DNA of 64,000 nt from Spiroplasma taiwanense CT-1. Its GTDB lineage: Bacteria > Bacillota_I > Bacilli_A > Mycoplasmatales > Mycoplasmataceae. The notes beneath the pieces were generated by a model. It was given only the letters and a program-made list of their open reading frames with translations. It did not search any database and was not told the origin of the DNA. Below are positions 1 through 64,000 of the stretch, in pieces; position 1 is the first letter of the stretch; each line of letters begins with the position of its first letter. Both the position numbers and the translations under genes were made by a program. Location of the stretch: NCBI RefSeq assembly GCF_000439435.1, contig NC_021846.1:558001-622000 (forward strand), in the 5' to 3' direction.

Positions 1-990
1 ATTTCCATCTTGAATTGTACCAATCATTCTTGTTGAAACAGCACTAATAATTGCAAGTGATCCACTTAAAACAAATGGACCAACTCCGTTTAATCAAATT
101 TCACCATTTTCTTTTAGATTAAATTTGTAACTACTAAATTTTGGTTTTAAAAATGTATTTTTTGAAAAAACAATAACTATGATTGATGCAATAATCATAA
201 ATGCTCAAGCTACCATTGAACCATAAACAGCACCAGCCATTCCAAGTTTTAATATATCTAAAAAGATGTAACCTAAAACCATATTTATAATTAATGATAT
301 TGATTGAATTGCTATAACAGTATAAATTTTGCCCTCAGTTCTTAACATTGTTGTAAAGAATGTTCCAAAACTAAGTAGTGGAAAACCAAAGACAAACATT
401 TTACAATATTCAATCGATAAAGAATATGATAATGCAGAGTCCTTATTTGCAAAATCAACTCCTGATTGAAAAACTAAGATATATTGAGATAGAAAATACA
501 TTATTAACATTATAAAAAATGATGAAAAAAATGTTTGAATAATTCCATTAATAAATGTTTCATTCATTTTATTTTGATTTCTAGCCCCCATGTGTTTTCC
601 AAAACTAATTGCAGTACCTACAGCTGTCAACATTGATATTGCAGATAACAATACTACAACTGAATTTGAATATTGTGTTGATACGTTAATAACTTGTTTA
701 AAAATATCTGTTTGAGATTCATTTACTAGAGAATCAGCATAAATATTAATTCCAGGTCCTCCAGTTTGATTTAAAAAATTTTCATATAATTTTTCAACTT
801 CACTAATTGCAAAGTTTAAAGTTAGTTGTTTATCAACAATTCCATATAGTCCATTTACTAATGTAATAATTATCATTGGTCCTGCCATAAACATTAAAGC
901 AATAAATGGATTTGAATATCTTAAAATCCATTCTCTTTTTGTTAAATGAACTGTTGCTTTATTTTCAAATTCAATAGAATTAAAATTCAA
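1..990 (-). CDS. MATE-family efflux transporter, 5' part (3' end outside window)
   Basis: Multi-spanning membrane protein of the MATE/DinF drug or metabolite:cation antiporter type. The visible part has a cytoplasmic N-terminus, then a helix starting MFMAGPMIIITLVNGLYGIVD, a periplasm-type loop, and helices with GTAISFGKHMGARN and FGTFFTTMLRTEGK, the conserved MATE helix-connecting motifs. TGA at about 205 is read as Trp and the frame stays open to the left edge, so the C-terminal half is missing from the window. Start choice is unclear: the frame offers only TTG at 990, while the well-placed AAGGA ribosome-binding site precedes an ATG at 1019 that runs into a stop after four codons because an A7 run (1009-1015) is one base short. 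Family call is good; substrate unknown. Confidence 0.8.
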
Positions 991-1098
991 TTCATTTTTT
1001 TGTTTTACTTTTTTTCCATATTTTTTCCTTTCTGTTTTAAAATAGAAACTTAATAAAATTAAATAATAAGTACTCTCTTAATAATTATAAAACTTAAT

Positions 1099-1139
1099 TT
1101 AGAATATAAAAACATATTTATATTTTTTTTATATTCTAA
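1099..1139. terminator. Inverted repeat between divergent genes
   Basis: Perfect 14-bp arms (TTAGAATATAAAAA at 1099-1112 and its complement at 1126-1139) separated by 13 bases. It lies between the divergent MATE gene and the plus-strand gene at 1176, so it is not at a gene end. It could be an old terminator, an operator, or the border structure of the mobile island that starts here. Confidence 0.45.
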
Positions 1140-1175
1140 GAAAATAAGCGATAAAAATTAGGAGGTGAAAATAAT

Positions 1176-1619
1176 TTGAAAAATTTTAAATATTTTATTA
1201 TTTTATTCATATCATTATTGGATGGAGTTGTTTTCTATTTATTATCTAATTCCTCAAAAGAAGAAAATAGTCAAATTACAAATTTAGAAACTTATCAAGT
1301 TTATTTTAAAGTAAAGTATGATATTAAGTTAAAACAGAATCGATTGTTACCAATAAAATTAACAAATGAAAATAAAATTAATGATCTTGATAATTTTATT
1401 GAAGAAAAGAAAATTGATTATTTATATAATTTTTTTAGTATTGATAATAATAAAGAATTACTTAAAAAAAATGAAATTATAGTATATCCACTTGAAAATA
1501 CTGAAATAGTTAAAACAAGTAGATATATAGTGAATTTTGAGTTTTTTAAATCTAAAGATGTTAGTGAAAATATTTCTAAAAAAACTGTTCTTATTTTAAA
1601 TGATATAAAAAATGATTAA
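1176..1619 (+). CDS. Hypothetical single-span membrane protein
   Basis: 147 residues, TTG start chosen because a strong AGGAGGTG lies 7-8 bases upstream. Residues about 5-23 form one hydrophobic helix without a lipobox Cys, followed by a charged Lys/Asn/Glu-rich domain, so it is probably membrane-anchored with an extracellular domain. The motif ETYQVYFKVKYDIKLK resembles NTYQVSEVKEKYILFK in the damaged next gene, suggesting tandem paralogues. It opens the mobile-element island. Function not recognised. Confidence 0.6.
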   Translation: MKNFKYFIILFISLLDGVVFYLLSNSSKEENSQITNLETYQVYFKVKYDIKLKQNRLLPIKLTNENKINDLDNFIEEKKIDYLYNFFSIDNNKELLKKNEIIVYPLENTEIVKTSRYIVNFEFFKSKDVSENISKKTVLILNDIKND

Positions 1620-1672
1620 GATGATTGCTTAAAAAAAAATTAAAAAAATCTATGTAGGAAGTAATTTTATTA

Positions 1673-2470
1673 ATGAATTTTATTCAAAAGATATTCCAAA
1701 ATTGCTTTTTTAATTTTCTTTTTTTAACATTTATTTTAATTTGTATTTTTGTTTATTTTGTATGTTGAATACCATATATTTTAAAAATAAAAAAGAAGTA
1801 TAAATTTTTTATATTACTTATTTTTTTTGAAATATTTTTTAATTTTTTATAAATTTGATGTAAATATTTTTATAAATTCAAATACTTATCAAGTGAGTGA
1901 AGTAAAGGAAAAATATATTTTATTTAAAAAAATATAAAAGTCTATATTATTTACAAGTAGGGGAGCAAAAGTTCTCAGTAGGGGAGTATGTAAAGGCAAT
2001 AGGGGAATTTAAAAAGATCAGTGTTAATGCTAATTATTGAGAATTTAATTTTAATAACTATCTTTTAAATAACAATGTAAAATAAAAAATCCAAAATGCT
2101 AATTTATATCAAATTAATAGATATGGAGTAAAATATTGATTTTATAAATTGATAAATGAATCTAATTCTTTAACAAAATTATTTGTTTTTCAAAGAAGAG
2201 AAAATAACGAAATATATTTAGAGTTATTAGGTTTAGGTTTAAGTTATTTAATAAATTTTAGTGATCTAAATATTTATTTATTAAGTTATTTTTTAAACAA
2301 AAAAGTTTTTAAATTTTCAAGAAAACAAAAAAAATATCGAATAATATTAATAATATTTTTTTTATTTTATAGCTGAATGCTTAATTTCAAATTATTTATT
2401 TTAAAATCTGGTATTTTGCTATTAATTGAATGAATTGAAATAAATTTTAATTTTAGGGAGAATAACAATA
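1673..2470 (+). pseudogene. Broken membrane protein gene, paralogue of the preceding gene
   Basis: An ATG at 1673 with AGGAAG 11 bases upstream opens a protein with two hydrophobic helices (LTFILICIFVYFVCWIPYIL, then FFILLIFFEIFFNF). The frame is lost at a T6 run (1843-1848), regained with NTYQVSEVKEKYILFKK, lost again at an A7 run (1926-1932), continues as LQVGEQKFSVGEYVKAIGEF, meets TAA at 2083-2085, and continues in the same frame as IQNANLYQINRYGVKYWFYK and more membrane-like sequence to about 2470. So one longer gene with at least two frameshifts and one nonsense codon. The 3' limit is approximate. No family recognised; a small phage or plasmid membrane protein is plausible. Confidence 0.55.
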
Positions 2471-2473
2471 ACT

Positions 2474-3372
2474 ATGTTATCAGGTGCTGACACCTTTACC
2501 GGTGGAGCTGCTGGAACAGCACTTAAAATAGCTAAAAAAACAGGGGGAGCTGTTGGTTTAGCTGCTATGGCTCTTTCATCTATTTATTCTGCTAAAGCAA
2601 GGTCTGGAATGAGTGCTAAAACAGCAGGTTTTAGAAACTCATTAGCACAAAAAAACAAGCTGTGCAAAATTGAGTTAAGCAAAATTCACCTATAGACAAA
2701 GATCCTGTCAAAAGAGCTAAACAGGAAGAAATTCGTAATGCTAAGTTAGAAGCTAAAAAAACCAAAAAAAGCAAAAACTTTGAAGAATACAAGTCAAATA
2801 TCCAAGACAAAATTTCTTCTACAGATTCAGGAATGCAAAAACTCTTATACCAACAAGAACTTGCTAAAAAAGAAAGAAAACACAAAAAACAACAAGCAAG
2901 ATACGACTATCTTAAATTTAGTTCATCAGATTCTAAAAATGATAATGCTCGTAGGATTCATAATTGAAGAAAAACTAAATTAGAATATAAAGCAGCTAAA
3001 CATGGTGATTTATTCCCTTCAAAAGCTCAATCTAAATTACAAAAATTTAATTCAAAAGAAGAAAACTGAATGAAGAAAAAAGGAATTGATCTAAATTTAG
3101 ATAAAAAAGGTCAAAAAGATGATTTCAAAACTCTTTCTTCAATGAATAGAAACAGTGAAACTAAAAAGGATATTAATTCTATTTTAGAAAAATACACTGC
3201 AAATGATAAAGATAAAAAAGTTAGAAAACAAAATCAAAAAAATATAAATAGAAACTTAAATAAAGAACAATTAGAAATTTTAAGAAAACACAAAAATCAG
3301 AAAAAAGAAAGTCACATTAAAGATGAATTTAAAAATCAAAACTATCGTTTTGATGAAAAACAAGGAAAATAA
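2474..3372 (+). pseudogene. Lys-rich mobile-element protein with one frameshift
   Basis: Starts with ATG after AGGGAG. N-terminal residues include a Gly/Ala-rich low-complexity hydrophobic stretch (GGAAGTALKIAKKTGGAVGL), then a very basic, Gln/Lys/Asn-rich helical region to a real TAA at 3370. The frame breaks at an A7 run (2649-2655); with one extra A the protein continues as QAVQNWVKQNSPIDKDPVKR and stays open for about 240 more residues, TGA being Trp. Expected full length about 300 residues. Charge and shape suggest a nucleic-acid or membrane-associated protein of a plasmid or phage, but I do not recognise the family. Confidence 0.6.
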
Positions 3373-3379
3373 CATTTTC

Positions 3380-3404
3380 AAAACATACTTCGTATGTTTT
3401 TTTT
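3380..3404 (+). terminator. Rho-independent terminator
   Basis: AAAACATAC, loop TTC, GTATGTTTT followed by T's, eight bases after the stop of the Lys-rich gene. Confidence 0.75.
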
Positions 3405-3458
3405 GTTTTTTGATGGTATAATTAATTTATAAATAATCTAAAAGAAAGGTTTTAAATC

Positions 3459-4630
3459 ATGGTGAGACTTAGAACAAAAAAAATATACTAACAATTTAAC
3501 AATTCCAAATGATTGATTAATTCCAAATTATAATCATAAAAATTGGATTGATTCATTTCAAAAATCAACGCGTAATAGAAAACTTTTAGAGACAGGTGAA
3601 GGTATTTCAGCTGATTTTTTATCAGAGTTGAGATTTTATTTTCTTTTAATAAGAGAAAACGCTGCAATTGATGATTGTAGAAAAACACGAGATCTAAGAG
3701 CTAAAAAAGGTTATCAATATGAAATTGATGAAATAGAAAAAGGTGTTGAAATATTTAATCGACTAATGCATGGTGCTCCTATTCAAATTCCAAGTGATTC
3801 ACCTATTTGAGATGGTTTTTTGAGAATACATTGTTGCTCATGGAACGTTGAATGATCCATTGAGTGTAGGAATTAGGTGACCAACACATGAGTCAAACAC
3901 ACACCAACCTCATACTATTAATTTATCAATTGAATCAATTCAACAACACAAAGATTATAATTATATAACTGGACTTGCTTATTTGTGAGCAGACTTTGTT
4001 TCACAAAAAGAAAAGTGAAATGAAGAGATGAAAGAAGAAGGTGAATACTATAATTTAGGATATGGTGTAATAGAACCTTATAGATCAACAGCTTCTGAAG
4101 TTGTATTTAATTTTATAAACATAGCTTTTTGATATCACCACCCATTTTTCAATTATCCCCCACTTTATAATACTTATCCTTCAACAACAAGACCAGATGA
4201 TGCAACAATCGAAAGAGTAAAACAAAATTGACCTAATATAAGATTGAAAGCAGAAGAATTATTTAAAAAAGAAGTTGAATATTTACAAGGTCCATATTAT
4301 ATTGAAACCCATAAACCTTTAACAGATGAGAATTGAGAAAAACATTTATTGTATGCAAAAGAAGTTGAATTTATTAAACAACAAGCTGAAGCAGCAGAAA
4401 AAGAAAAGTGAGAAAAAATGAAAAGACAACAAGAGGATAGAGAAATTTCTCAACCTCACAATGCTAAAAAAGAATTTGAAAGTTTACCGATTGATGAACA
4501 AAAAATTATTTTAACAGCTTCTCAGTATAATGAAATAAAAAGAGTATTTAAATCTCAAAAAGAAAAAATACTAAATGATGAAAAGTTGATAAATGGAATA
4601 TTTGGTTCAATTGACCGAGAATTAGAATAA
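3459..4630 (+). pseudogene. Large hypothetical mobile-element protein, two frameshifts
   Basis: ATG at 3459 preceded by AAAGAAAGG. The frame is lost in an A8 run (3476-3483; A7 would keep it open) and again in a T6 run (3816-3821; T5 would keep it open), then runs without interruption to TAA at 4628. The restored product is about 390 residues, Trp- and Tyr-rich in the middle (IAFWYHHPFFNYPPLYNTYP), with a charged helical C-terminus (KQQAEAAEKEKWEKMKRQQE). No signal peptide or membrane helix is evident. Function not recognised. It sits 12 bases upstream of the restriction-modification gene, whose AGGCGGTG ribosome-binding site follows its stop, so the two were probably co-transcribed. Confidence 0.6.
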
Positions 4631-4642
4631 AGGCGGTGAAAT

Positions 4643-6790
4643 ATGAAAAAAACTGAGTTTGAAAATGTTAAATATTTCAATAAAATTATAGGTATAGAAA
4701 ATAAAACGGATGGAACTTTATTTATATATCCTACTCCAAAAGATAAAAAGTTAGGAGAAAAAATAAGTAGAAAACCAGACGGATATTATTACATGGATGG
4801 AGTAACTTTCATATTAGATGCTAAAGCAGAAGGTAATGAATTTTCTGGGCAACTAGAAGATTATTTGAAATTAGAACAAAATAAAAATAATGTTGGTTTT
4901 AAATATTCTGGCATTTTTTTTCAATGTTTTATTAATGGTGTTTTAATGGAAGAAGAAATAGAACCTAAAAATGCTGAATATTACATTTCGAAATATTTCA
5001 ATAATAAAATAACTAACGAAGATATAGTTAATAACTCTGCTAAGAAATTAGCAAATATGTTTAGAGATTCATCAATAGATAAACAAATGAATGTCCCATT
5101 TATAGGTTCCGTTATGCTTTGTCAAAAGTTTGGTAAAGATATAAGTGGAGATAGCACTAAAAACATTATCAGAAACATTAAATCAGCTATTGAAGAAATT
5201 ATTTTAAATGAACCAAAAACAAGACAAGAAAAAAAAGAATTTATAAAAACAATGTTAGATGATCCATCTTTGAATAAAACAAAAATAAGCGATATTATTC
5301 AAATAATTTCTGAAATTTCAACAGTTTACAATTTCATTAATGTATCTGATAAAAAAGGTCATGACACAATGAATAGTTTTTTGAAAATTTTTAGAAAATG
5401 AAATTCAGCTAACTCTAATGAAAAAGGTGAGGTTTTTACACCAGATCATATAGCTCAACTTATGTATAAAATTATTGATATTAAATTTAGCGATACTGTT
5501 TTGGATCCTACTTGTGGATCGGGGACTTTTTTAGTTAATGCTCTAACAAATATGCTAAACGAAACTGATGATGAAAATGAAAAAAAGAAAATAATGGAGG
5601 AAAGGGTTATAGGTATTGAAAATTTGAGTTTCAATGCAACTTTGGCAGGAATAAACATGTTACTCCATGGTGACGGTGCAAGTAATATTTTTGAAGAAAA
5701 TTGTTTTAAAAAGTTACCTCAACTAAAAGGTGAGTATAATAAAGTTTTAATGAATCCACCTTTTTCTCAAAAAGATAAAGAACTTAAATTTGTTTTAGAA
5801 GCATTGAATAATATGAAAGAAGGCGGAAAACTGGCAACAATATTACCTATAAATTGTATTTTAGGTAGAGGTGATAAGCAAAATGATAATTTAAAACTAA
5901 AAAAAGAAATTCTTTCAAAACACAAAATTATAAAATCTGTAAAATTACCTAATAAACTTTTTGAACCAAACGCTAGTACAGAAACTTGCATAATTGTTTT
6001 TGAATCTCACGCTAAATTAGAAAAACAAGTAATAGAATTATATGATTTTAGTAATGATGGGTATGAAATTAGGATGAGATCGGGTAGAGTTCCTATAAAT
6101 GAAGAGGAAGCTATGATTAGTTTCCAAAATCAAAAACCTATAATTAAAGAAGTCACTGAAAAAGATGATTGACTAATAGAACCTACACTTGATATAAATT
6201 CTTTTTCATCAGAAATTTTTCAAGCAGCAAAAATAGATTATGAAATGAGAGAGAAAAATTTAATAGAAATTTTGTATAAGAATGAAGGCAAAATAGATTT
6301 AAAAATCAGCACTAAATTCAAAGAAATGAGTTCTTATAATTGAAAAGAGTTTTTAATTTCTGATATTTTCGAAATTGAGGGAAAAGGTTTAGATAAACCA
6401 TTGTACAACTTTGATGATGAAAATAAAATAGCTTGCATAAATGCTAAAAAAAATAACAACGGTATTGGTGGTTATTGTTATAACCCTAAGAAGATTTTTA
6501 AACCTAAAAGATTTACTGTTGTTTCACAAGGCGATGGAGGAGCAGGGATGACTTATTTTCAAGATGATTATTTTTGTGCTACAACATCTGTTTTTGTATT
6601 AAAACCAAAATTTGAGGTTAATGTTAATGTGGGTATTTTCATAGCAAAAATTTGTAGTTTAAAGTGAAAAAGAATTTATTCACATGGTAAAACAATTACT
6701 AGGGAAGTTTTGTTGAAACAATCAATACCTTTACCTGTATCAGATGAAAATAAAATAGACTTTGAAACTATTGAAAATATAATGAAATAA
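4643..6790 (+). CDS. Single-chain restriction-modification enzyme (nuclease + N6-adenine methylase + recognition domain)
   Basis: 715 residues, intact once four TGA codons (5402, 6170, 6341, 6665) are read as Trp. N-terminal nuclease-like domain: PD at 45-46, then LDAK at 58-61 and Q70, the PD-(D/E)xK pattern. The middle is an HsdM-like gamma-class adenine methyltransferase: [10 protein letters not shown] near 266, SAM motif [11 protein letters not shown] near 288, catalytic NPPF at 371-374, and [10 protein letters not shown]. The C-terminus from about 565 ([16 protein letters not shown], then [14 protein letters not shown]) looks like one HsdS-type target recognition domain. The order nuclease-methylase-TRD in one chain is that of type IIG/IIC (BcgI-like) enzymes. 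It is the only undamaged long gene in the decayed island. Recognition site cannot be read from sequence. Confidence 0.85.
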
Positions 6791-6878
6791 AAATTAAAAA
6801 TTCTTAATTTTATAATTTGATTTAAGCGGAAAATATTTTTAGTAGTCGTTATAATTAAATAGACAAGCATAGCACATA

Positions 6879-7382
6879 TTGTCTCAATCAAAAAATATAA
6901 CAGAATTAAGAACTTTTAATTCTTGGTTAAAAGATGGGATAAATGTTAAAAAGGGATCTAAAGCTTTTTATGTATTGTCACATTTAAAACTCTGTAAAGA
7001 ACATCAATATGCCAAAAATTGCCCTTTGGAGTGTAAGGAACAATTTTTTAAATACAAAAAGGTTGTTTTGTTTGATGCAACACAAACTGATATGAAAGAA
7101 TTAGAAATAAACAAAATAATGAAAATAAAAGAAGAAAAAATTAAAAACAATAAAGAATTCACCCCATTGGTTAATTTCTTAAAAAGTGTAAAACCTTTTG
7201 ATTTGGAATTCGCAATGTCCACCGAAGGGGAAGGAGGGTTCACCAATGGGGAAAAAATAGTTATATCCTTGGATTTAAAGGATGAATATAGATTCAACAC
7301 TCTACTTCATGAATTTGGTCACCATTATTTAGATCACGCTGTTGATGGTAAGGGTTATGAAGGACATGTAAGAGGCATAAAG
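6879..7382 (+). pseudogene. ArdC-like antirestriction metallopeptidase, truncated
   Basis: About 168 residues remain. The N-terminus (ITELRTFNSWLKDGINVKKG, then KKVVLFDATQTD) matches the ArdC/DUF1738 ssDNA-binding domain pattern of Trp, VxKG and VFDxxQT. The second half carries a zinc-peptidase HExxH motif, HEFGHH at residues 144-149, with a preceding FNTLL helix. ArdC-type proteins protect incoming plasmid or conjugative DNA from restriction. The TTG start at 6879 has no visible ribosome-binding site, so the 5' end may also be lost. At about 7340-7385 the coding frame passes into a different, phage-like protein, removing the C-terminus. A candidate tail lies at 8508-8634. Neighbourhood with the restriction enzyme fits a conjugative or plasmid origin. 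Confidence 0.65.
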
Positions 7383-8492
7383 GAAAGATTTTATATGAAA
7401 TTAATTTATATTCTAATGATAAGCAAAATAAAGATTGAACTTTTAATATTGTTTATGATTCTGAAATTAAAGAATTTAGATATAATTTAATTCATTATTA
7501 TGAAAATAAAGTTGATAAAAGCTTTAGTGAAAAATTAGATACTCATTTAAATTCAAATAATTTTTTTAGGTATTTTTTTTACACCTTTAATTGAAAATCA
7601 AAGTCCATACTTATTTAATGCAAATAATTTAGTTTTTAATTTTATGTTTTCAGATTATTTAAGAAGTATTGCTAAAGAAGAAATGGCAAATTATTATGAA
7701 AGTTTTTTTGTTGATTTAACTAAATATTTTTTTGAATTAAACCCATTAACCTCTGTTGAATTTATAGTTCCTAATTATAAAGATAAAAATGGAGTTTGGA
7801 AAAAAATAAATTTAAATTATAATATGTTCATTAAAAATGGGTTTAATTTATACCCTAAAACTTTATTAATAAGTAGATTAGACTATAATGGTGGTAATGC
7901 TCCTTACCCACCAAATATCAATTTAAATTATAAAAATATTAGTAATATAAACTATGATACTAATTTAAATTATTATAGTTATTTAAATTCCAAAGATATA
8001 ATAGGTCAGTATATAAAAGTCGGAAGTACAAATTATTTGAATGAAATAAAAGCTTATACAATTGATAAAAATGTTCAAGGTTTTAATTCTGTTACTGCTA
8101 AAATTGAATCTACCGTACTTAATACAGGTAATGCTAATAATATAGAAAGTAAAAAATCTAATTTTTATGGTTTTAATTTTGTTATTTATAATAGTGATGA
8201 TTGAAATAATGTTGTAAATTCTCCAGACCAATTTTTTAATATTCCTTACCAAAAATGTGGAATAACAAATATTATGGGTTGTATTGCAAATGGGTTTATA
8301 TGAGCCGTAAATACATTAATTGATTTTACAGGTTTTAGTAAATTTGTTTCTCCTATTGTAACTGCAGGAGTTGCAACAACAGATTTATTGAAATCAATTC
8401 AAAACTTATTTGCATTTAATGTTACTTTTTCAATTATGATTTATTCTATTATGACTTTAGCAATTATAATTGCGATAGGAAAAATATTTTAG
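7383..8492 (+). pseudogene. Phage-like surface/adsorption protein fragment, one frameshift
   Basis: Reading frame with GKILYEINLYSNDKQNK runs to a T7 run at 7561-7567; with T6 it continues FLGIFFTPLIENQSPYLFN and stays open to TAG at 8490. The product is Asn/Tyr-rich, extracellular-looking, with two C-terminal hydrophobic helices (MGCIANGFIWAVNTLIDF and FSIMIYSIMTLAIIIAIG), a layout typical of large surface or adsorption proteins of Spiroplasma filamentous phages. That family placement is from general resemblance, not a match I can verify. No start codon is seen: its 5' end is joined directly to the ArdC-like gene, so this is an integrated or recombined 3' fragment. Confidence 0.5.
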
Positions 8493-8507
8493 AAAAAATT
8501 TCTAGCA

Positions 8508-8634
8508 TATATATTTAATTTACTATAAACATTGATTTATTTTAATTATCGATTTTCTACATGATAAAAATTTCTATGGTTCTCAAGAATGGTGAAGAGA
8601 TTATTTAAACAATTTATTTGATTTAAATTTATAA
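8508..8634 (+). pseudogene. Orphan C-terminal coding fragment
   Basis: With TGA as Trp an open stretch of about 41 codons ends at TAA 8632, with the protein-like end HDKNFYGSQEWWRDYLNNLF. No start or ribosome-binding site. It follows the phage-like gene and may be the displaced tail of the truncated ArdC-like gene; that link is inference. Confidence 0.35.
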
Positions 8635-8642
8635 AAATTAAA

Positions 8643-8677
8643 AGCGCAAAAAACATTTATGTTTTGCGCTTTTTTTG
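8643..8677 (+). terminator. Rho-independent terminator closing the mobile island
   Basis: AGCGCAAAA (8643-8651) and TTTTGCGCT (8662-8670) pair around a short loop and are followed by T7. Confidence 0.85.
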
Positions 8678-8701
8678 TTATATTATAGATAGTGTTGTGT
8701 A

Positions 8702-8749
8702 CTTGCCCGAAAGGGCAAGATATTAGAAAACGAGCGAAGCGAGTTTTCT
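8702..8749 (+). promoter_or_regulatory. Structured GC-rich 5' leader with two hairpins
   Basis: Hairpin 1: CTTGCCC, GNRA-type loop GAAA, GGGCAAG (8702-8719). Hairpin 2: AGAAAAC, then GAGCGAAGCGA, then GTTTTCT (8725-8749), in which the inner part can form two G-C pairs and tandem sheared G-A pairs around a GAA loop. A TATTATAG -10-like box lies just upstream at about 8681-8688, and TTGAGGAG just downstream before ATG 8770. It does not match a riboswitch class I can name. A REP-like repeat is an alternative. Confidence 0.45.
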
Positions 8750-8769
8750 TACTTGAGGAGAATGGATTA

Positions 8770-9332
8770 ATGAAAGAGGAAAACAAAGAAAGTTTAAAAA
8801 TCTTATTTTTGAATACAATATCATCAATTTTTTGCAGATTAACATATTTAATTCCAGTTTTAATTATTGGTATTTTTTTCAGATGAACATCATGAAATAT
8901 GTTTATTTGATTAACATCATTTCAATTTTTACCAATTACTTTAATAGTAATTTCATTAATTTATCAATTAAAATTTTTAAAAAATATTAATAAAAATGGC
9001 TATAAAATATTATTTATTTTTTTACCACTTGTTTTTTAATAATTGTTTTAATAAGTAAACAAGATTTATTAGTAAATAAAGAAAATAGCAAAAATTATAA
9101 AAAAATATTTACTGTTTTATTTATCATCTTATTTGTTTTTATTTCAATTAGTTATTTATTAGCAATTATTTTTTCATTTGGCTTTATTGATACAGTTACT
9201 TTAAAGGATATTTTAATTTTATTATTACTTCTCTTATATCTTTTAGTATTACCAATAGTATATATTGGAATTAATGAATTTATTTCAAAAATAATTACTA
9301 AAAATAAGAAAAAATTAGTTGTTGAGAATTAA
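8770..9332 (+). pseudogene. Membrane protein upstream of ABC exporter, one frameshift
   Basis: ATG 8770 follows TTGAGGAG. The first frame encodes about 89 residues with hydrophobic helices (YLIPVLIIGIFFRW, FLPITLIVISLIY) ending at a TAA inside LPLVF. If the T6 run at 9032-9037 had one more T the frame continues LPLVFLIIVLISKQDLLVNK and runs to TAA 9330 with two or three more helices, giving about 187 residues with 5-6 helices. So a single gene broken by one base, or a sequencing error. Position and orientation suggest a partner of the ABC-2 exporter that follows. No family recognised. Confidence 0.6.
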
Positions 9333-9406
9333 ATAAAATTATAATTAAGTAAAATATATGCTTACTTAGGAGATTATTAATGTTATTATTTCAATGGTGA
9401 TAAATA

Positions 9407-10135
9407 ATGAGTATTATACAAGTTCAAAATTTAAAAAAAGAATTTGGTAAAAAAATTGCTGTTTTTAATCTTTCTTTTGATGTTTATGAAGGAGAAATTT
9501 TTGCTTTATTAGGAACTAATGGTGCTGGTAAATCAACAACAATGGAGATAATTACTAAAATGATAAATAGTACTTCAGGTTCTGTTAATATTTTTGGAAA
9601 AAACATTAATACAAACTGAAATGAAATCTCTCCAAAAATAAATATAGTTCCACAGGAAAACGCAATTTCTGATAATCTAAATGTCAGACAAAATTTGGAG
9701 CTTTTTTATGATTTATATAATTTGGATAAAAAACAAAAGGGCGAAATTTTAGATAAACTAATTTTAGATTTTGAATTAACTGAGTTTGCAAAAATAAAAG
9801 CAAAAAAATTATCTGGGGGTTTAAAAAGAAGACTTAGCATTGCTGTTGCTTTAATAACTCAACCAAAAATTTTAATTTTAGATGAACCAACAACAGGGTT
9901 GGATGTTATAAGTAGAAAACTACTTTGAAAACAATTATTATCACATAAAGAAAAAAATAAAATGACAATAATTATTACAACCCATTATTTAGAAGAAGCA
10001 GCAGAATATGCAGATAGAGTAGCTATTATGCATAATTCATACTTAAAAATTATAGATACAGTTGAAAATATGTTAGAAAAAACAAAAACTTCTAGCTTTG
10101 ATGATGCTTTTATTAAAATAACGGAGGGCATTTAA
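9407..10135 (+). CDS. ABC transporter ATP-binding protein (ABC-2 type exporter)
   Basis: 242 residues. Walker A GTNGAGKST near residue 39, signature LSGGLKRR near 137, Walker B ILILDEPTTGLD near 160, and switch THYLEEAAEYADR, in the right order and spacing for the CcmA/drug-resistance exporter ATPase family. TGA codons at 9617 and 9926 are Trp. Energises the permease encoded immediately downstream; its TAA is followed directly by the permease ATG. A tiny upstream frame, MLLFQWW then stop (9379-9402), sits behind the better AGGAG and may act as a translational leader; the gene itself has only a weak GGTGAT. Substrate unknown, a drug, peptide or lipid being typical. Confidence 0.9.
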
Positions 10136-10885
10136 ATGAATTTTCAAAGAATATTTGCTTTTTCTAAAAAAAATTTAATTGAGTTATTAACTGATAAAAT
10201 TGCAATTTTTATGACAATTTTATTTCCTTTTATATTTTTAATATTTTTTTTAATTATTGGTGTTTTAAGAATTCCTGAAACAAATCATTTGGAATATTTT
10301 TACAGAACACTTACAATTAGTACTTTGTTTGCATATGTTTTATTATGTTTATATATTGTTAGTGCAATTTCTAAAGAAAAAAAGACAGGTCTTTTAAAAA
10401 GAATTGCAATTTCACCAATAAAGCCAGTGGAAATAATAATTGGATATTCAATTCCATATATTATATTAGGATATTTTGAATTTTTATTTTTATCAATTAT
10501 TACTTTTTGTTTTGGAATGAACTTTAATGTATCATTTTTATTAAATTTTATTATTTTAATTCCAATTTTATTGTTTTTTATTTCTTTTGCTATTTTGTTT
10601 GGTTCACTTGTAAATGAAAAAATGGCAGGAGTAGTTGGAATAATAGTAACGGGTGGTATTTTTATTTTTACTCCATATTTTTTAGATATTTCAATAAATT
10701 CTGTTGATGCTATGAGTATAATTTCATATATTTTACCTTTTGCAAATATTTATGATTCTATATTTAAATCAATTACATCAGAATTTAATTTTATTATTGT
10801 AAATATTTTTATAACTATTATTTATTCATGTTTATTTGTTTGAGGTTCAGGAGCAGTTTTAAAATTAGTTTTAAGAAAAAAATAA
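10136..10885 (+). CDS. ABC-2 type transporter permease
   Basis: 249 residues with six hydrophobic helices in the ABC2_membrane arrangement: a helix after the cytoplasmic N-terminus (IFMTILFPFIFLIFFLIIGV), two around 60-110, two around 120-170 and one at the C-terminus. The loop SKEKKTGLLKRIAISPIKP is the typical coupling region. TGA near 10841 is Trp. The start abuts the ATPase stop and has ACGGAGGG in front, so the pair is translationally coupled. Forms the membrane half of the exporter with the ATPase. Confidence 0.88.
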
Positions 10886-10909
10886 AAAACACATTTTAAA
10901 TGTGTTTTT
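10885..10909 (+). terminator. Rho-independent terminator
   Basis: AAAAACACATTT, one-base loop, AAATGTGTTTTT directly after the permease stop. Symmetric A/T flanks mean it could also serve the convergent rpsT gene. Confidence 0.8.
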
Positions 10910-10931: not shown

Positions 10932-11174
10932 TTATTTCATAAGTCTAGATTTTTCTCTAGCTGCTTTATTTGCTTTGTATATTCCTTTAGTAACTGATTT
11001 GTCTATTAAACTAACAGCTTCACTTACTAAAACATCTTTTTCTTTTAAATCCTCAGATTTTGCAACTAGTGCTTTTTTTATAGCAGTTTTAACTTTACTT
11101 CTAAATGCTTTATTTGCAAGTCTAGATTTTTCATTTGTTAAAATACGTTTTTCTTGTGATTTTATATTTGCCAT
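10932..11174 (-). CDS. rpsT: Small ribosomal subunit protein bS20
   Basis: 80 residues, usual length for S20. Starts MANIKSQEKRILTNEKSRLA, the family's conserved basic N-terminus that binds 16S rRNA, and ends NKAAREKSRLMK. AGGAGGT lies seven bases before the ATG. Stands alone between convergent and divergent neighbours. Ribosome assembly protein of the 30S body. Confidence 0.95.
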   Translation of the reverse strand: MANIKSQEKRILTNEKSRLANKAFRSKVKTAIKKALVAKSEDLKEKDVLVSEAVSLIDKSVTKGIYKANKAAREKSRLMK

Positions 11175-11370
11175 TTTAATACCTCCTTTAAGTAAGAATT
11201 ATATATACAAATAAAGTATATAGTAAAAATGGTTATTTTTTAAAAAAAATTAAAAATATTGTATATTTTTAATATATTATTTAAGTAAATAGTTAAAAAA
11301 AGGAATGTTATAAATGTAAGAAATAAAATTATTTTTTATTTTAGTAATTAAGTATATAAAGGTGATTTAA

Positions 11371-12321
11371 ATGATATTTGTTCAATCAAAAGATGATTTT
11401 TTAGTAAAAAAACAAGTAAATAAATTAATCGAAAAAATAAATATTAACAATCAATATGAAATTTACGAATACTCATTAATTGATGATTCAGTAATTAAGA
11501 TTCTGGAAGAAATTAAAACATATTCATTTTTTTCAAATAAAAAAATAATAATAATTAATGATTGTTGATTTGTTAATGAAAGTAAAATTAAATTGCATAA
11601 AGATTTTGATATTAAATATATTGAAGAGATTTTTAATATCAAAAATACTGAAGTAGAAATAATCATGTCTTTAAATTCTGAAAAATTTTCAAAAAAATTA
11701 AAGATTGCAAAACTTACAGAACAAAATGTTAGATTATTTAAAATTGAATTGCCTACATATAATCAAAAGAAAGACATTTTTATAAGAAAAATGCAAAAAG
11801 CAAATATTGATTTTGATCATAAATCAGTTGATTTATTCATTGAAAAAATACCAGAAAGTATGCAAATTTTTTCAAATGAAATTGATAAATTATTATCATT
11901 AAATAAATACATTGATAATAATTTAATTGAAGAAATTGTTTCAAAGTATTATAGCTATGATACATTTGAAATTGCAAATTGTTTTATTTCAAATGACATA
12001 AGTAATTTTTTAACTCAATGAAGTTCTTATAAGCAAATGAATAATGATATTTTTTCATTTATAGCATTGTTATCAAGTAATTTTATTTTATTAAGAAATA
12101 TTCTTTTATGTAAAAAATTAAATTATTCAAATAATGAAATTTTTTCAAAATTAAATGTAAATCCATATAGAATGACAAAATTATTGGAAAAAAATAGATT
12201 AAATATAGAGCAGATAAATGATAAAATCAAGGTGATGTATTCTTTAGAAAAGAACATTAAAAATGGAAAATATGATAGCAAAGTTATTCCTGAAATTAAA
12301 TTTCTAAAGATGTTTTTTTAA
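11371..12321 (+). CDS. holA: DNA polymerase III delta subunit (clamp-loader)
   Basis: 316 residues, normal for HolA. N-terminal MIFVQSKDDFLVKKQVNKLI matches the family start (Y/F-L-L-x-G-x-D-x-F-L), followed by EEIKTYSFFSNKKIIIINDC, the delta-domain strand pattern, and the C-terminal helical collar domain (FSFIALLSSNFILLRNILLC). It is the subunit that opens the beta clamp for loading. TGA at 11566 and 12019 are Trp. GGTGATTTAA precedes the ATG. A hairpin without a clear T-run follows at 12319-12343. Divergent from rpsT, a frequent arrangement in Firmicutes and Mollicutes. Confidence 0.85.
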
Positions 12322-12361
12322 TCTAATGAAATTAGATTAAAAACAGAAGGGAAGAAAAAAA

Positions 12362-13804: not shown

Positions 13805-13820
13805 TTAAAAATATTTTTAG

Positions 13821-13850
13821 AAATAAACTAGTACAACTAGTTTATTTTTT
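13821..13850 (+). terminator. Rho-independent terminator
   Basis: AAATAAACTAGT and ACTAGTTTATTT with an ACA loop, followed by T's, 16 bases after the preceding stop. Confidence 0.85.
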
Positions 13851-13878
13851 TATCTATAATATATATAGAGGTAAAGAA

Positions 13879-14157
13879 ATGAGTTATTATTATAAACATA
13901 AATACGGTTTTTCAACGCATTCAATTCAAAGAATAAGGCAAAGATTAAGTTTGCCTGATGAAGAGGAATTTAAGTTAAAAGATAAAATTATAAAACTTAT
14001 TGAAAAATCAACTTATAGCTTTGATACTTCAAAGTTTACTTATATTAAAACTCCAAAAAAAGATGTTTATTTTGTAATTGACATAATTACAAATACAATA
14101 ATAACAGCAACCCCAATTAGTGCAAGTAAACAATTATGATTGATTGAAAATGAATAG
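13879..14157 (+). CDS. Small conserved protein, DUF4258-like
   Basis: 92 residues with TGA 14137 as Trp. The pattern FSTHSIQRIRQRLSLPDEEE followed by beta strands (YIKTPKKDVYFVIDIITNTI) resembles the short RelE-fold DUF4258 proteins, whose hallmark is a THAxxRxxER-type helix. No antitoxin-like partner is visible, and it sits 16 bases before the next gene, so a free-standing toxin is unlikely. AGAGGTAAAG precedes the ATG. Confidence 0.6.
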
Positions 14158-14173
14158 ATGAGGTAATTTAAAA

Positions 14174-15763: not shown

Positions 15764-15786
15764 AATTTTAGTTAGATTAATAAAGG

Positions 15787-51616: not shown

Positions 51617-51696
51617 TCCATATAATTTTGAAATAAATGTAGAATAGCATGCTGCTTTAATTAATTTTAATTTATTAATAGAAAGTACATATATTT

Positions 51697-53495
51697 CTAT
51701 GTGAGAAAATAATTCATTAAAGAAAAAAGTACACCATAAATTGCAGGTTCAGTTATACCAAAGATTCCAGAAGGAATTGCTGCAATTGAATCATTTTTAG
51801 TTTTATTATTTTTTGAAATAATTGCCAATCCAATTATTGCTCCCAAACACCCCCATTGTGTCATTCCAACAGCAGATTGTAAGAAAGAAACTCCCCCATC
51901 TTTTTGAGCAACAGCAGTTAAAATTGTAATTATTGGTAAATGCATTCCCATCATAACCATTAAAGGTCAAAATATGCAAGAATTGCTTGTGCCATTCCAA
52001 ATGGTGTAAGTGTCAAATAATAAACAATTCAGAAACAATTTGTTCTATTACATAGTAAATTGATCCTAATATAAAGAATGTTATTAGTGCAATTGAGAAA
52101 ATAACTAATAAAGGTCTAAAAACTGTTTCAAATGATGGTTTAATTCAACTTTTAATTCAAACATCTAATTTACTTGCAAGATATATTCCATAAATTATTA
52201 CAAATGGTCTATTTGTAAAAGGCATTACTTTAATTTGTGCAAGACCATATCACGCAGGGTTTTCATTTACACTTCCATTAATTCCTGTTTCAAATAATGT
52301 TCATTCAGTTCCATAAAGTCCATTTACAGTACTTCCACCATTAAATAAAATAGGATTTGCAATAACTAAACCAATTGCAGAACCAATTATTGGTGAAAGT
52401 CCAAAATAATTTGCAGCAGTAATTGCAGCAAATAGATCTAAAAATTTTAAAGGTGCATCTGAAATTACTTTTAAAATTGCTAAAAATACATTAGCATCTT
52501 TTAACAAAACAGAACCTTCTGGTATTATTCCATTTGGTGGAGTTTCATAAAGTACATTTGGCATTACTTTTGCAATTTGTAAAATAGATACAATTCCCAT
52601 CATCATTACAGATGCAATTAAGACAGGAATTAATGGAACCATAACTCCACCAATTACACCAAAAAATCTTTTAAATAATGAGTTTTTTTGATTATTTGTT
52701 TTTACTGCAAAATTTGCTTGAGAAGAATTATTTAACTTAACAATTTCATCCTTTACTTTATAAACATCTTGACCAATTACAATTTGAAGTTCAACTCCAT
52801 TTCAAATTAAACCTTTAACTCCCTCAGTATTTTTTATTTCTGATTCTTTAACATTAGTTTTATTTATTACAGTAAATCTTAATCTAGTTATACAATTATA
52901 AACTTTACTATAATTATCTTTTGAACCAACTAAAGTATTTAATTTTAAAGCTAATTGTGAGTAAAAATCTTTTTGATTAAAATAACTTTCAAGATCAATA
53001 TTTAAATTTATTTCTTCATTTTTTACATTTGCAATAAATGTACCTATTAACTCTCCCTTTTTATAATTCAATTTATTTTTAAATATAAATTCATAATTAA
53101 TATTTTTATTTTGATTATCAATTGTTATTGGACAACTATATTCATATCCTTCATTTTTAATACTTTGTAAATCAACATCAACAATTTTTGTATTTAAATT
53201 AACTGTGTCACCTAATTTAACATATTGATTAAATGGTTTACCATTTAATTTTACAGTGTCCAAACCAATGTGCATTAAAATATTTACATTTTCATTTATT
53301 TCAAAAAAATATGCATGTTTTTTATCAGTTACTAATGATAATTTTGAATTTTTTAATGGTGAATTAAAAAAACCATTTAGTGGTTCAATTCAAAAACCAT
53401 TTCCAAGCATTCTAGTTGAAAATAATCCATCATTTAATTCTTTTAAATCATGTGCAATACAATCAACTGGTACATATATCTGAATTTTTTCCATT
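51697..53495 (-). pseudogene. PTS permease EIIABC, truncated and frameshifted
   Basis: Paralogue of the EIIABC at 38.2-40.7 kb with the same EIIA-EIIB-EIIC order: EIIA MHIGLDTVKLNGKPF, EIIB VYNCITRLRFTVIN, EIIC PLIPVLIASVMMMGIVSILQ to GITEPAIYGVLFSLM. Two short frameshifts sit in EIIC at about 52015 and 51970 (FII-LTLTPFGMAQAILAYF-WPLMVMMGMHL). The last 70-100 residues expected after GITEPAIYG are absent: the frame ends at TAG 51697 where phage-like DNA begins. No catabolic gene remains beside it. Sugar specificity unknown. Confidence 0.8.
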
Positions 53496-53594: not shown

Positions 53595-54324
53595 AAACTA
53601 TATCAATTATCATTTTAATTATTGAAGCTCATATTAAGATGATTAATAATCATTTTATATATATTTCTTTTGTAAAATATTTTTTTAAAAAAAGGCAGAA
53701 ACAGTTGAAATTATTGCTGCAAAAGAGAGCGGTAATAAGAAGTTTAAAGTTATACTAGAATTCGTAAAATTCTCATTTTTTATAATTAAATTAATTAGAC
53801 TTGAGATCATTATTATTGTGTGACTAATTGGTGCAGCTTCTTTCATATTTAAATAACACAATAAAACTAAAGCAGGCATAATAATTGGTCCTCCACTCAT
53901 TCCAGTTAATGAAGTTATAATTCCTGCAAAAAAAGTAATTAGAGATATTTTTAGCATATTAATTTTTGTTTCACTTTTTTTATTAATATTAATAATTAAG
54001 AAATTTTTTTTATAAATTATTTTATTTGAACTTTTTTTTAAAAACATATTCAGATAAAATAAGCAAAATAGTCACAATTGTCAAAAATATTATTATTATA
54101 TAATTTATATTTTTTTTAAAGCACTCTAAAATTACATTAAATGTTGCACTAATAAATACTAAAAAAGTCGATATAAATTTAATTTCTTCAAGTGCATATG
54201 TAGTTAAAATAACTAGAAGCAATGGAACATAAAGTACTCCTCCACCAACTCCAGAAATTGAACCTAAAAAAGAAACTAATAATGTTAAGAAAAGTAATAA
54301 AATGACAATTTCAATTGTTCCCAT
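53593..54324 (-). pseudogene. TauE/SafE-family anion permease, two frameshifts
   Basis: About 243 residues when restored, eight helices, normal for the family. First half: FLGSISGVGGGVLYVPLLLV (the conserved G-x-x-GxGGG motif); second half: FFAGIITSLTGMSGGPIIMP ALVLL, the repeat of that motif. Frame shifts at an A8 run (T8 54032-54039 on plus) and at a T7 run (A7 53687-53693). Family members export sulfite, sulfoacetate or related anions. The GAGGTAAT before the ATG overlaps the stop of the FGE-like gene, so the two form an operon. Confidence 0.75.
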
Positions 54325-54336
54325 TTTAATTACCTC

Positions 54337-55173
54337 TTAAGTTATATCTTCTACAACTCTAAATCCTGTATTACTTGATGAAGTTGCAGCAGAAGCACCA
54401 TTTCTAGAATAAACTTTATATCTTTTGCAATAAGAATCATGATATAAAAATGACCCTCCTCTAATTGCAAACATTTGATCTGAATTATAGCTAAATTATT
54501 CTTTCATTTTTAAAGCACTCATTTCATTAAAAAATTTATAATCAATTCTTGCTGGATTTAAGCATCATTCTCAAATATTTCCAACCATTTGATAAAGTCC
54601 ATAACCATTTGGTTCAAAACTCTTTACTTTTATTACACCATTTTTAGTTTCAAAATTAGTAGTTTCACTATATTTAAATTCTCCTTTTCAAATATTACAT
54701 CTCATTTCATTATTGCTATCAAGAAAATCATTTCCTCATGGATATATAGAATTTAGTAAACCACCACGAGCAGAATATTCTCATTCAGCTTCTGTTGGCA
54801 ATCTTTTATTTGCTCATTTACAATATTCTAATGCATCATTTCTTGAAACATGAACAACAGGAAAATCTCACCTATTATCAATGTTGCTTTCTATTCCTTC
54901 TGGATGATCTCAAGTTGCTTGAGTAACAACATATCATCAATCAGCATTTGGAACTTTTGAATATTTTTTTCTTTGTTCATCATTTAATAATGAAAAAAAT
55001 ACATAACTAAATCCAAATTTTTGCGCGTCAGTAATGTAATTTGTTTTATCAATAAATTCTTTAAATTCCAAATTTGTAATTGGTGTTTCACTAATTTTAA
55101 AATCATTTACTTTAACAAGTAATGCTGGAGAATCATTATCAACTGTTTTATCTTTTATTTGTTCATTGCCCAT
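54337..55173 (-). pseudogene. Formylglycine-generating enzyme-like (SUMF1/EgtB) protein with nonsense codon
   Basis: 278 codons. FGE-sulfatase domain: FKISETPITNLEFKEFIDKT, PVVHVSRNDALEYCKWANKR, LPTEAEWEYSARGG, YPWGN, GLYQMVGNIWEWC, and IRGGSFLYHDSYCKRYKVYS then TGFRV. TAA at 54496-54498 interrupts it 47 codons from the end. The active-site Cys pair of FGE (CHxxYC) reads YHDSYC here, so one Cys is Tyr; aerobic sulfatase activation is doubtful even before the stop. SUMF1-fold relatives with other roles are possible. No sulfatase gene is in the window. Confidence 0.75.
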
Positions 55174-55310
55174 TAAAAACTATTTCCCTTAATTTTAATC
55201 ATACATTCACCATTTTCTTTCATTATAATTAATTTGATTATATCATTTATAAAAGAAGTGTTTTTCCCTATAAAAAAATAATTAGCATAATTTTATATAG
55301 TAATAAAAAT

Positions 55311-60325: not shown

Positions 60326-62281
60326 ATGCTTATTAAAAAAAGGAAAAAAATTGAACTATACACGCATTTATTCAGTGCACTAAAAAATAAAAAATTCTTA
60401 ACTTTTTTAATGTTTATTTTAACAATAACTATTGCTTTACTTTTTATTTGAAATATTAAAGCAATTGAATATATTACAGCACTATTAGTCTCAAAAAGTG
60501 TATTGGATTCAATGTTATCAATGAATACAACAGATATTTATGAAATAATTCAAAAATTAGGTTTAGATTATACTCAAAGTCAAATTGATGAAATTTGAAA
60601 AAGTTTAAATTTTGGTTCAAATGTCTATGAACAAATAATTCAAAAATTCTTTTATGATTTTGTTTATTATGATGATGGCAAAAACTTATATTTGGTTTTT
60701 TGAAATATGAAATTTAATCTTTATTCACTTTCATTTACTATGATTGGTGATGTAAGTATTATAGTAGTACTTTCATATTTTAATTTTATTACAAGTGGTT
60801 TTATCGCTCAAGCTTATGAAAATGATTTAAAAAGAAAATTAATAAATAAAATAATTCTTCAAGATTTACATTATTTTAATTCAAATAAATCAGGTCAATT
60901 AATTTCAACAATAGTAAAAGATAGCTCAATTGTTACTTCATATATTAAAGAAGCACCAATTATCTATTTCTTATCAATTATTACAATTTTATTTTCAGCA
61001 ATTGTTATGTTTAATATAAGCTGAAAATTAGCTTTATGTGTTTTTGGTTTATTACTAGTATTTATGCTAATAATTTTTATTACTATTTTAATTTCAAATA
61101 GTTCTACAAGAAAAATTAGTAAAATTTCACAGGGACTTGATAATGAACTTAGTGAAAAAATTTATAATATCAGACTAATTAAATCAGTTGGAACTTTTGA
61201 AAAAGAGAAAAAAAATTTTGATGATATGATCAATCATGTTGGAAAGAAAAAAAAGAAAAAATTCTTTGCTTCTGAAATCCCTTCTGCATTAATAATTGGG
61301 GGAATTGGAAGTTTCTCAATGGCATCAATTATATTTGGAGTATTTCTATTTTATAATGAAACACAAGCGCTTATTAGTATAATGACCTCTTTTACAGCAG
61401 GCGTTATTGTAATGACAATTCCAATTATGCAACTAAGACAAATAATTGGTGATGCTCCTCAAGCCAGAGTTTCTGCTGTAAATATTAGTAATTTAATAAA
61501 TAGTGAAATATTTATTGAAAAAAATAATACTTTAATGATTAATGAAAAAATTAATTCTATAGAATTAAAAAATGTTGGTTTTGTATATTCTGAATCAAAT
61601 GAATATGTAATTAAAAATTTTAATATAAATTTAGTAAGAGGAAAAAAATATGCTTTTGTTGGACCAACTGGTAGTGGAAAATCAACAATTGCAAAATTAT
61701 TATTAAGATTTTATGATCCACAAGATGGAGAAATACTGATAAATAACAAATTAGATTTTAAAAAATTGAATTTAAAATCTTGATTAGATAAAATTGGTTA
61801 TGTTGATCAAGAGCCCCAAATTTTAAGTGGAAATATTTATGAAAATGTAAGTTATGGTTTAGAAAATAAAACTCAAGATGATATTATTGAGGCCTGTAAA
61901 AAAGCAAAAATACATGACTTAATTATGAGTTGACCAGAAAATTATGAAACTGTTTTATATGAACGTGGAGCACAATTAAGTGGTGGACAAAAACAAAGAC
62001 TAGTTATTGCACGATTAATTTTAAAAGACCCTGAAATTTTAATTTTAGACGAAGCTACAAGTGCACTTGATAATATTGTTGAAGCAGAAATTCAAAGTGA
62101 ACTTGAAAAATTAATGGAAGGAAGAACAACCATTTCAATTGCTCATAGATTAAGTACAATAAAAAAATTTGATGAAATTTATGTATTAGAACAAAATAAA
62201 GGAATTGTTGAAATTGGAAATTTTGAAAAATTAATTTCTATTGACGGTTTATTCAAAACATTATATCAACTTTCAAAATAG
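60326..62281 (+). CDS. ABC multidrug/lipid exporter (membrane + ATPase domains)
   Basis: 651 residues, intact. N-terminal six-helix domain with an unusually large extracytoplasmic loop between helices 1 and 2 (about residues 65-125). ATPase: Walker A GPTGSGKST, Q-loop YVDQEPQIL, signature LSGGQKQR, Walker B ILILDEATSALD, switch His in SIAHRLS. Type I exporter, working as a homodimer or with another half. TGA codons are Trp. AAAGGAGAAAATAATAAA precedes ATG. Likely controlled by the divergent MarR protein; substrate unknown. Confidence 0.9.
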
Positions 62282-62282
62282 A

Positions 62283-62313
62283 AGAACCTCATAATATTAT
62301 GAGGTTCTTTTTT
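62283..62313 (+). terminator. Rho-independent terminator
   Basis: AGAACCTCATAAT and ATTATGAGGTTCT perfect 13-base arms followed by T's, directly after the exporter stop. Confidence 0.92.
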
Positions 62314-62314
62314 A

Positions 62315-63432
62315 TTAAATTTTAAATAATGTTTCTAAGGTTAATTTATGAATTTGTAAATCTAAATCTACTATTGGAACAATTATAAAATCTTCTTTAA
62401 AACCAAAGTAAGGAATTTCAATAATATAATTATTACCATCTTGCTGTTCAATTATATTTTTTTGATTTGAATTTTCATAATCATTAATAAAACTTCTATT
62501 TCTTCATAATTCAAATTGTCTTTCATTTTTATTTTTTGGAATATAATTTTCCACTCTTAAAAATAAACTTTCTTTAACCATAACTTTGCAATCATTAACC
62601 TCAGTATTACATCAACCTTTTTTAGATTTTTCATCAACAGATATTTTCATTTTTTTTGCATTAAAATTTGAATTTATATATAGAGTAATTCAATTAAATG
62701 AATTTGTTGTAGCTTCACTAATAAATAACTTTTCATAATATTCTGGTAATTTATTATTTAAACCAATAACATATAAATCATTATTTTCTCACCCTATTTC
62801 AAAATATCCATGCAAAGTAAATTTACTTTTATTAGAAAAATTTAAGTAGTCTGATTTGAAAATAGTATTTTCAATTATATTAAAAGATAATTTCAATTTT
62901 TTATAGTTTTTGACACCCTCTAAATGAAATCAATTTTTTTGTCCATCATTTTTTACTTCAATTATATTTTCATTAGAAGTTTTAAAACCATTACTACTGT
63001 AATTAAGTATAATATCAAATTTTTCAGTTTTTATTTCATTTATATTGAAATGACATTCATTCAACCCATAATATTAACTTCAATTTTTTTATAATTTACA
63101 CCTTTAAAAGTGTCATCATAAATTAATTTAAAATAAATATCATTTTTATTTATATTAAGAGATAAATAAAATTTATCATAAAATTTTACATTATAAAGTT
63201 TTGTAAAATTTTCTTTTAAGATTTCTGTTTTTTAAATTAAGTCTTCCATATTTTTAAAGTTTCCATCTTCATATAATTCCTGTACTTTTTTTAAAAAAAT
63301 TTTTTCAAAATTTGGTGATTTTTCATAAACTGGTGGATCATATACAAAACTTGTATTAGAACATGAATTTACAAAAGTTATAGGTATAAAAGTAAGATAT
63401 AACACAAAAATGCTTTTAATAATTTTCTTCAT
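62315..63432 (-). pseudogene. Lipoprotein gene with nonsense codon and frameshift
   Basis: Signal MKKIIKSIFVLYLTFIPITF then VNSC, Cys at 24. TAA at 63232 interrupts after NFKNMEDLI, the frame continues KTEILKENFTKLYNVKFYDK, shifts near 63065 in a TGAATGAATG duplication, and then runs open as ECHFNINEIKTEKFDIIL to TAA 62315. The restored protein is about 370 residues, Asn/Lys-rich with beta-type modules. Its ATG follows the stop of the upstream gene directly. Confidence 0.65.
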
Positions 63433-64000
63433 TTATTTTATTTCTCATTTTAAAATTTTTAAATCTAATGAAGTATTTTGTCATTTACTACCAAAACCTG
63501 TAACTCCTATAGAACCATAAATTTTATATTCCAAATCATAATTTAAATTTATTCTAACTGTTATATCACTATCAACTTCTGAATATACACCAAAACTAGT
63601 TTTTTTAAATTTTATTAATTCCACTTTTTGTTCAACATTTAATTTCATTTTTTCTAATGAAAAATTTGAATAATTTTTAATGTTATCATAACCATTTACA
63701 TTAAATTTTAAATTTTTAAATTTATTTGTAAAAGCTTTAAAGTAATCATAATTGGCTGTTTGTTTTTGCTCATCTGTTAAGTAGTCTTTCAAATTTAAAG
63801 CTTTATATCAAATATTATTATTTTCTCAAAAATATGTATTAAGCGTACTTCAATTTGAACTAATTTTTTTATTTATTTTATGAAAAATTTGACGATTTAA
63901 ACTGCTATAGTCATATGTAACATGAACAATTGCATTTAAAGAATTATGATTAAAATTAACAAAATTTGTTGAATTAATTATTACTTCGAAATAAGCTTCA
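63433..64000 (-). CDS. Hypothetical (probably surface) protein, 3' part
   Basis: The frame is open from the right edge to TAA 63433 (at least 188 residues, TGA as Trp), start outside the window. Asn/Lys/Tyr-rich, with alternating strands (TVRINLNYDLEYKIYGSIGV TGFGSK). Its stop abuts the ATG of the broken lipoprotein gene, so both were one operon. Similar composition suggests another lipoprotein. Family unknown. Confidence 0.6.

Follow-up and report, generated by a model that had tools for sequence, protein, structure and literature searches.

Gene decay beside a lesion-free conserved block in the Spiroplasma taiwanense chromosome reaches conserved DNA-uptake and recombination genes

Spiroplasma taiwanense is a mosquito-associated bacterium whose genome, in the parts of two published accounts covered here, is described as degraded: many pseudogenes (65, compared to mostly fewer than 10 in relatives), a low coding density (81.7%, compared to about 88-93%) and low expression of almost all pseudogenes (PMC5726471) are accompanied by degraded DNA repair (PMC5091035) and lost carbohydrate genes (PMC5726471, PMC5091035). 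The published explanation for weak selection, in the parts covered, is a small effective population size, and the review attributes such decay to small population size, selfish elements, the loss of repair genes and slippage at homopolymers (PMC5091035). The same parts name none of comEC, dprA, ruvAB and recU, and a search of the main text of PMC5726471 for ruvA, ruvB, dprA and comEC returned 0 matches; the 2013 genome paper may list these genes.

Damage to recombination genes is reported for other mollicutes in the sections of the publications drawn on here. S. atrichopogonis shows extensive pseudogenization, with recU, ruvB, recO, recR and dinB pseudogenized or absent (PMC4607517). Within the recombination set of S. 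mirum only recA and recD are complete, and ruvA/B, recU, recO and recR are not (PMC9666726). S. poulsonii is a symbiotic Spiroplasma with a recA pseudogene, for which transcripts of ruvA, ruvB, recU and comEC are reported (PMC5874924), and Mycoplasma pneumoniae subtype 1 is described as carrying a recU nonsense mutation (PMC3364216).

We analyzed a window of 64,000 nucleotides (positions 558,001-622,000) of the 1,075,140-bp S. taiwanense chromosome; the assembly also has an 11,138-bp contig (C1). GC skew and gene strand both switch near 18.1 kb of the window, which marks the probable replication terminus. Lesions were called by three-frame alignment to homologues, with TGA read as tryptophan. 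Homologues were taken from five sisters of the same genus (80 kb each around the terminus), from spaced samples of genomes G002 and G008, and from targeted searches. By this approach, 12 window genes were found to carry, between them, 16 frameshifts with homology support and 6 in-frame TAA codons (Table 1); six of the 12 carry at least two shifts or stops, and the MatE gene combines one shift with a deletion. For TauE, and likewise for UPF0236, Pfam fragments line up consecutively along a single profile, and one PTS gene is split by Pfam between EIIA/EIIB and EIIC frames. The original prediction, which had noted more than twenty single-base shifts together with several TAA codons, was upheld for the TAA codons; of the shifts 16 have homology support, and a figure above twenty is plausible only. 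All 12 broken genes lie inside the blocks of decay that it named, and its block at 62-63.4 kb is unconfirmed because usable homologues are lacking there. Stretches without usable homologues, at about 2.6-7.3, 8.7-9.3, 31.2-34.1, 49.7-51 and 62.3-64 kb, were not judged. An apparent shift in the ORF at 3.8-4.6 kb was left out of the count, as this ORF had no homologue among the 39 other genomes searched.

Table 1. Intact and broken features of the window, in window coordinates (G-numbers are our labels for other genomes).
Feature	Coordinates	Strand	State or content
Gene directly upstream of comEC	1173..1711	+	One frameshift, one in-frame TAA
comEC, N-terminal part only	1682..2490	+	Two frameshifts, one in-frame TAA
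Stretch absent from sisters, comEC remnant to rpsT	2491..10900		N6-methylase (4631-6787, open); ArdC-like fragment (weak, below Pfam cut-off); membrane protein fragment; ABC-type ATPase and permease ORFs (9404-10882, open)
Membrane protein, C-terminal part of 496-aa G017 homologue	7394..8490	+	One frameshift
Conserved syntenic block	10935..31065	both	20 homology-supported genes, no lesion
ABC exporter remnant	34362..35326	-	One frameshift, three in-frame TAA
Two open accessory genes	36118..38224		Hypothetical 85% identical to G001; Glyco_hydro_1 (36.8-38.2 kb)
PTS EIIA-EIIB-EIIC gene	38267..40699	-	One frameshift, one in-frame TAA
RpiR-family regulator	40902..41539	-	One frameshift
MatE-family transporter	41609..42820	-	One frameshift, 77 residues missing compared to homologue
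Second conserved block	42903..45528		Four genes including G3P_acyltransf protein and MBL-fold hydrolase, no lesion
UPF0236-family IS	45723..47114	-	One frameshift outside homopolymer
Protein of unknown function	47705..48747	-	One frameshift; island common to G013
Second PTS gene (EIIA, EIIB, EIIC)	51328..53488	-	Three frameshifts (two in shorter alignment), missing segments
TauE-type exporter	53595..54330	-	Two frameshifts, 32 residues missing
FGE-sulfatase domain protein	54342..55292	-	One frameshift near start; lowest confidence of set
Open ABC exporter	60326..62278	+	Open

The calls among the accessory genes differ in certainty. The reference for the ABC exporter remnant is 35% identical and the call is therefore less certain; nearby fragments match parts of ABC_membrane and ABC_tran, and Pfam places ABC exporter pieces at 33-36 kb. 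The open frame of the FGE-sulfatase protein stops short of the ends of its homologues. The UPF0236 element was identified by its profile match and by its presence in more than one copy, the second of which (98.6% identity, at about C2:637.3-638.7 kb) carries a different nonsense codon. Because two ORFs of the transposase overlap in open frames, a programmed frameshift was considered; it was rejected, as the second copy and the G013 copy, the latter open, are single-frame at this position. The surrounding island (45691-51726) is about 84-87% identical in nucleotide sequence to G013:C1:292.3-298.7 kb, at a protein identity of only 78% between the endonuclease IV of S. taiwanense and that of G013, which suggests horizontal exchange between species.

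By contrast, none of the 24 conserved genes at 10.9-31.1 and 42.9-45.5 kb was judged to be broken, as had been predicted for the core block of 10.1-31.0 kb. Three flags were set aside by hand: for holA (named through NCBIfam), a TAA that lies just 5' of the start; for the gene that we take to be rpsT, one shift and one TAA that arise where the reference ORF extends upstream of the true start; and for the 22.5-24.2 kb gene, its own natural stop seven codons before the reference end. The gene at 18.1-18.8 kb is open but 36 residues shorter than its reference. Others in the 10-31 kb block are, to judge by their protein sequences, presumably nusB, xseA, dinB, coaE, ribF and the gene for endonuclease IV. 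The last of these is open in S. taiwanense, and what we take to be the same gene in G011 (C1:544495-545380) is split into two frames. The dxs-like gene inside the block (22545-24291) is present in five of five sisters; its score against the best NCBIfam model falls short of the cut-off (360 compared to 395 bits). Neither a tRNA nor an Rfam match at gathering score was found in the window. Counted by gene, 12 of the 17 others tested were broken compared to 0 of 24 conserved genes (hypergeometric P of about 8e-7, own arithmetic), a comparison biased by the choice of references, which were picked for suspect genes and thus not blindly. Were lesions as frequent in the conserved blocks as in the broken ones, the former would be expected to hold 23 (22 without one lesion at 7.6 kb that lies outside the block list), and the Poisson probability of none, about 1e-10, overstates certainty because lesions inside one gene are not independent.

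The comEC region shows that a conserved position is also affected. In five of five sisters comEC is an open ORF of 687-691 aa and, together with its upstream partner, adjoins rpsT; in S. taiwanense an 8.4-kb stretch intervenes, and the comEC remnant corresponds to reference residues 5-279 of 691, the rest being unmatched in the window. The sister ComEC matches PF03772, and its match to TIGR00361 is below the cut-off of that model. The partner has ORFs of 158-183 aa in all five sisters, with no Pfam match for the sister protein, and by position we presume it to be comEA. No convincing repeats were found to flank the 2.5-10.9 kb stretch in its AT-rich background. A relation of this stretch to contig C1 was considered and rejected, as no C1 ORF matched the window (tblastn, E 1e-8). 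C1 itself (L112:1-11138) had no near match in the plasmid collection, from which records of the same genome may be left out; its beginning and its end have T17 and T16, each followed by the same 20 bases, a pattern that fits a circular plasmid whose ends overlap.

Further conserved genes were found to be broken elsewhere on the chromosome. In the control sample, RuvB (one TAA and two shifts) and DprA (one TAA) were identified by Pfam through the sister proteins; the gene directly upstream of ruvB has one TAA and is named RuvA by position only, because its sister protein has no Pfam match. All three are open in five of five sisters. RecU, with one TAA and one shift in S. taiwanense, is open in all six genomes read, and a search of the 19 other genus genomes showed it free of TAA and TAG in every one. 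RecA is open in S. taiwanense and free of stops in 19 of 20 genomes, with one TAA in G013; RecO is likewise open in S. taiwanense, at 264 residues. Open frames of RecO have 182-188 residues in G006, G008, G015, G017 and G019 and 260-267 residues in the other 15 genus genomes, S. taiwanense among them. Among the control genes, PTS genes, MupG, an ABC protein and a dicarboxylate symporter are broken as well. For the six broken recombination and competence genes, the changed fraction of sites that are invariant in the five sisters was 0.157, 0.123 and 0.227 at codon positions 1, 2 and 3, compared to 0.161, 0.096 and 0.228 for 25 intact genes. As the excess is small and confined to codon position 2, the six genes appear to have been near-normally constrained until recently; with change at these sites hardly raised, any relaxation of selection on them would have been recent or weak.

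This set of genes corresponds to the degraded DNA repair published for S. taiwanense, in that recU, ruvB, probable ruvA and dprA are broken and recA and recO open. Its broken recU and ruvB are shared with S. atrichopogonis; unlike in that species, recO is open, as is the gene that we take to be dinB. S. mirum has the same contrast of a complete recA with incomplete ruvA/B and recU; recO and recR are incomplete there as well. S. poulsonii, although likewise a symbiont with a damaged recombination set, presents the opposite arrangement, with recA as the broken gene.

Lesions were also more frequent in S. taiwanense than in its sisters. By the same uncurated pipeline, 33 of 244 genes were broken in 404 kb of S. 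taiwanense compared to 26 of 892 in the five sisters pooled (Fisher P 2.7e-9), with sister values of 10/332, 11/336, 2/73, 1/75 and 2/76. No doubtful rows were removed before counting: those of the sisters are mostly small overlapping or upstream-extended ORFs, and some of those of S. taiwanense are low-identity paralogue or tandem-gene rows. If only genes with at least 50% identity to the reference are counted, the difference is weaker and in the same direction (11/165 compared to 22/763).

The shifts tend to lie near A/T runs, and this raises the question of their origin. With 11 shifts from control genes outside the window added to the 16 within it, 20 of 27 have an A/T run of at least 5 nt within 12 nt, compared to 9.4 expected for random positions in the same genes; the other seven have none. 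Sequencing errors fall at the same places, and the calls are made on the assembly sequence alone; since replication slippage and sequencing error both predict clustering at runs, the clustering cannot separate the two. Most frameshifts being sequencing or assembly errors at homopolymers is nevertheless very improbable. The 24 conserved genes are lesion-free despite a comparable run density (477 A/T runs of at least 5 nt in 22,757 bp of conserved blocks, 21.0 per kb, compared to 379 in 21,724 bp of broken blocks, 17.4 per kb), which bears out the earlier remark that core genes hold equally many homopolymers. In addition to the seven shifts off runs, of which the IS shift is one, with its second copy bearing a different nonsense codon, there are lesions of types that homopolymer error does not make, namely the in-frame TAA codons, missing segments such as the 77 residues of MatE, and the truncated comEC. 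The published pseudogene annotation, with its low expression, and the contrast with the sisters agree, and the view that the decay is real and not uniform sequencing error was sustained. A second alternative is that some shifts at A/T runs are reversible, in which case the genes would stay usable through phase variation or transcriptional slippage. Runs of 9 nt adjoin the shifts at the comEA position and in RpiR, a 15-nt run lies beside a PTS shift outside the window, and a T15 tract is placed 34 nt upstream of the PTS gene at 51.3-53.5 kb; but half of the 12 window genes carry multiple shifts or stops, MatE has its deletion besides, and nearby runs reach no more than 5-7 nt at 15 of the 27 shifts and are shorter still at seven. 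We consider this alternative unlikely, though less so than sequencing error.

The original prediction also held that decay is confined to accessory regions, where transport, surface and mobile genes would be lost. PTS genes, exporters and an IS are indeed among the broken genes, and 10 of the 12 broken window genes are not conserved-block genes: they comprise five transporters, among them the MatE protein that is absent from the five nearest sisters, a regulator, an IS, the FGE-domain protein and two proteins of unknown function. A strict limit to accessory regions is refuted as stated, however, by comEC and its partner in the window and by recU, ruvB, probable ruvA and dprA elsewhere, all of which are conserved and open in five of five sisters. 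Conversely, the accessory Glyco_hydro_1, ABC exporter (60.3-62.3 kb) and N6-methylase genes are open. The lack of lesions in the 10-31 kb block presumably results from selection on the particular genes that it holds, rather than from a general sparing of conserved genes.

The lengths of A/T runs in the samples are bimodal, with none of 12-14 nt and a second peak at 15-20 nt. Runs of 15-20 nt number 5 in 404 kb of S. taiwanense, 13 in 480 kb of G002 and 18 in 480 kb of G008, and 2, 6 and 6 per 80 kb in G006, G001 and G017. In the five sisters none of 45 such runs is inside a homology-supported gene, and 20 of the 45 are poly-T tracts 29-144 nt upstream of one; in S. taiwanense two of five are inside genes, both of them broken, and the T15 tract upstream of the second PTS gene occupies window positions 53528-53542. 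One long tract precedes the same MBL-fold gene in each of five sisters and is absent there in S. taiwanense. Some long tracts follow hairpin-like sequence and may be terminators; the tracts could be promoter contingency tracts or reflect a slippage equilibrium.

Taken together, these results indicate that S. taiwanense is very probably undergoing recent, ongoing genome degradation. Under weak selection, slips in A/T runs as well as deletions, insertions and nonsense substitutions would reach fixation in dispensable genes, a set that would comprise carbohydrate PTS genes, exporters, and regulatory and mobile genes, and also the conserved DNA-uptake and Holliday-junction genes comEC and its partner, dprA, probable ruvA, ruvB and recU. 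Stronger selection would keep the 10.9-31.1 kb block, recA and recO open. We infer that the broken genes have lost their function and that drift had a role in this loss. It is conceivable, if somewhat short of probable, that ComEC and its partner, DprA, RuvAB and RecU were lost together and recently as one DNA-uptake and Holliday-junction module, with RecA, RecO and the Pol IV-like gene remaining under selection. If so, RecA would be left with only fork repair or translesion synthesis to serve, and the chromosome would in effect be clonal, a state that would itself hasten further decay.

The decay of the S. taiwanense genome is already described, and our finding is a local view of this known process; what is added here is the naming of conserved genes that are broken, together with a correction to the idea that decay is confined to accessory regions. 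A clean block beside decaying blocks would reflect gene-by-gene selection, with no wall between core and accessory genes. With recombination and competence genes broken here and open in close sisters, S. taiwanense would offer a natural comparison on the question of whether the loss of recombination follows or drives the decay of symbiont genomes.
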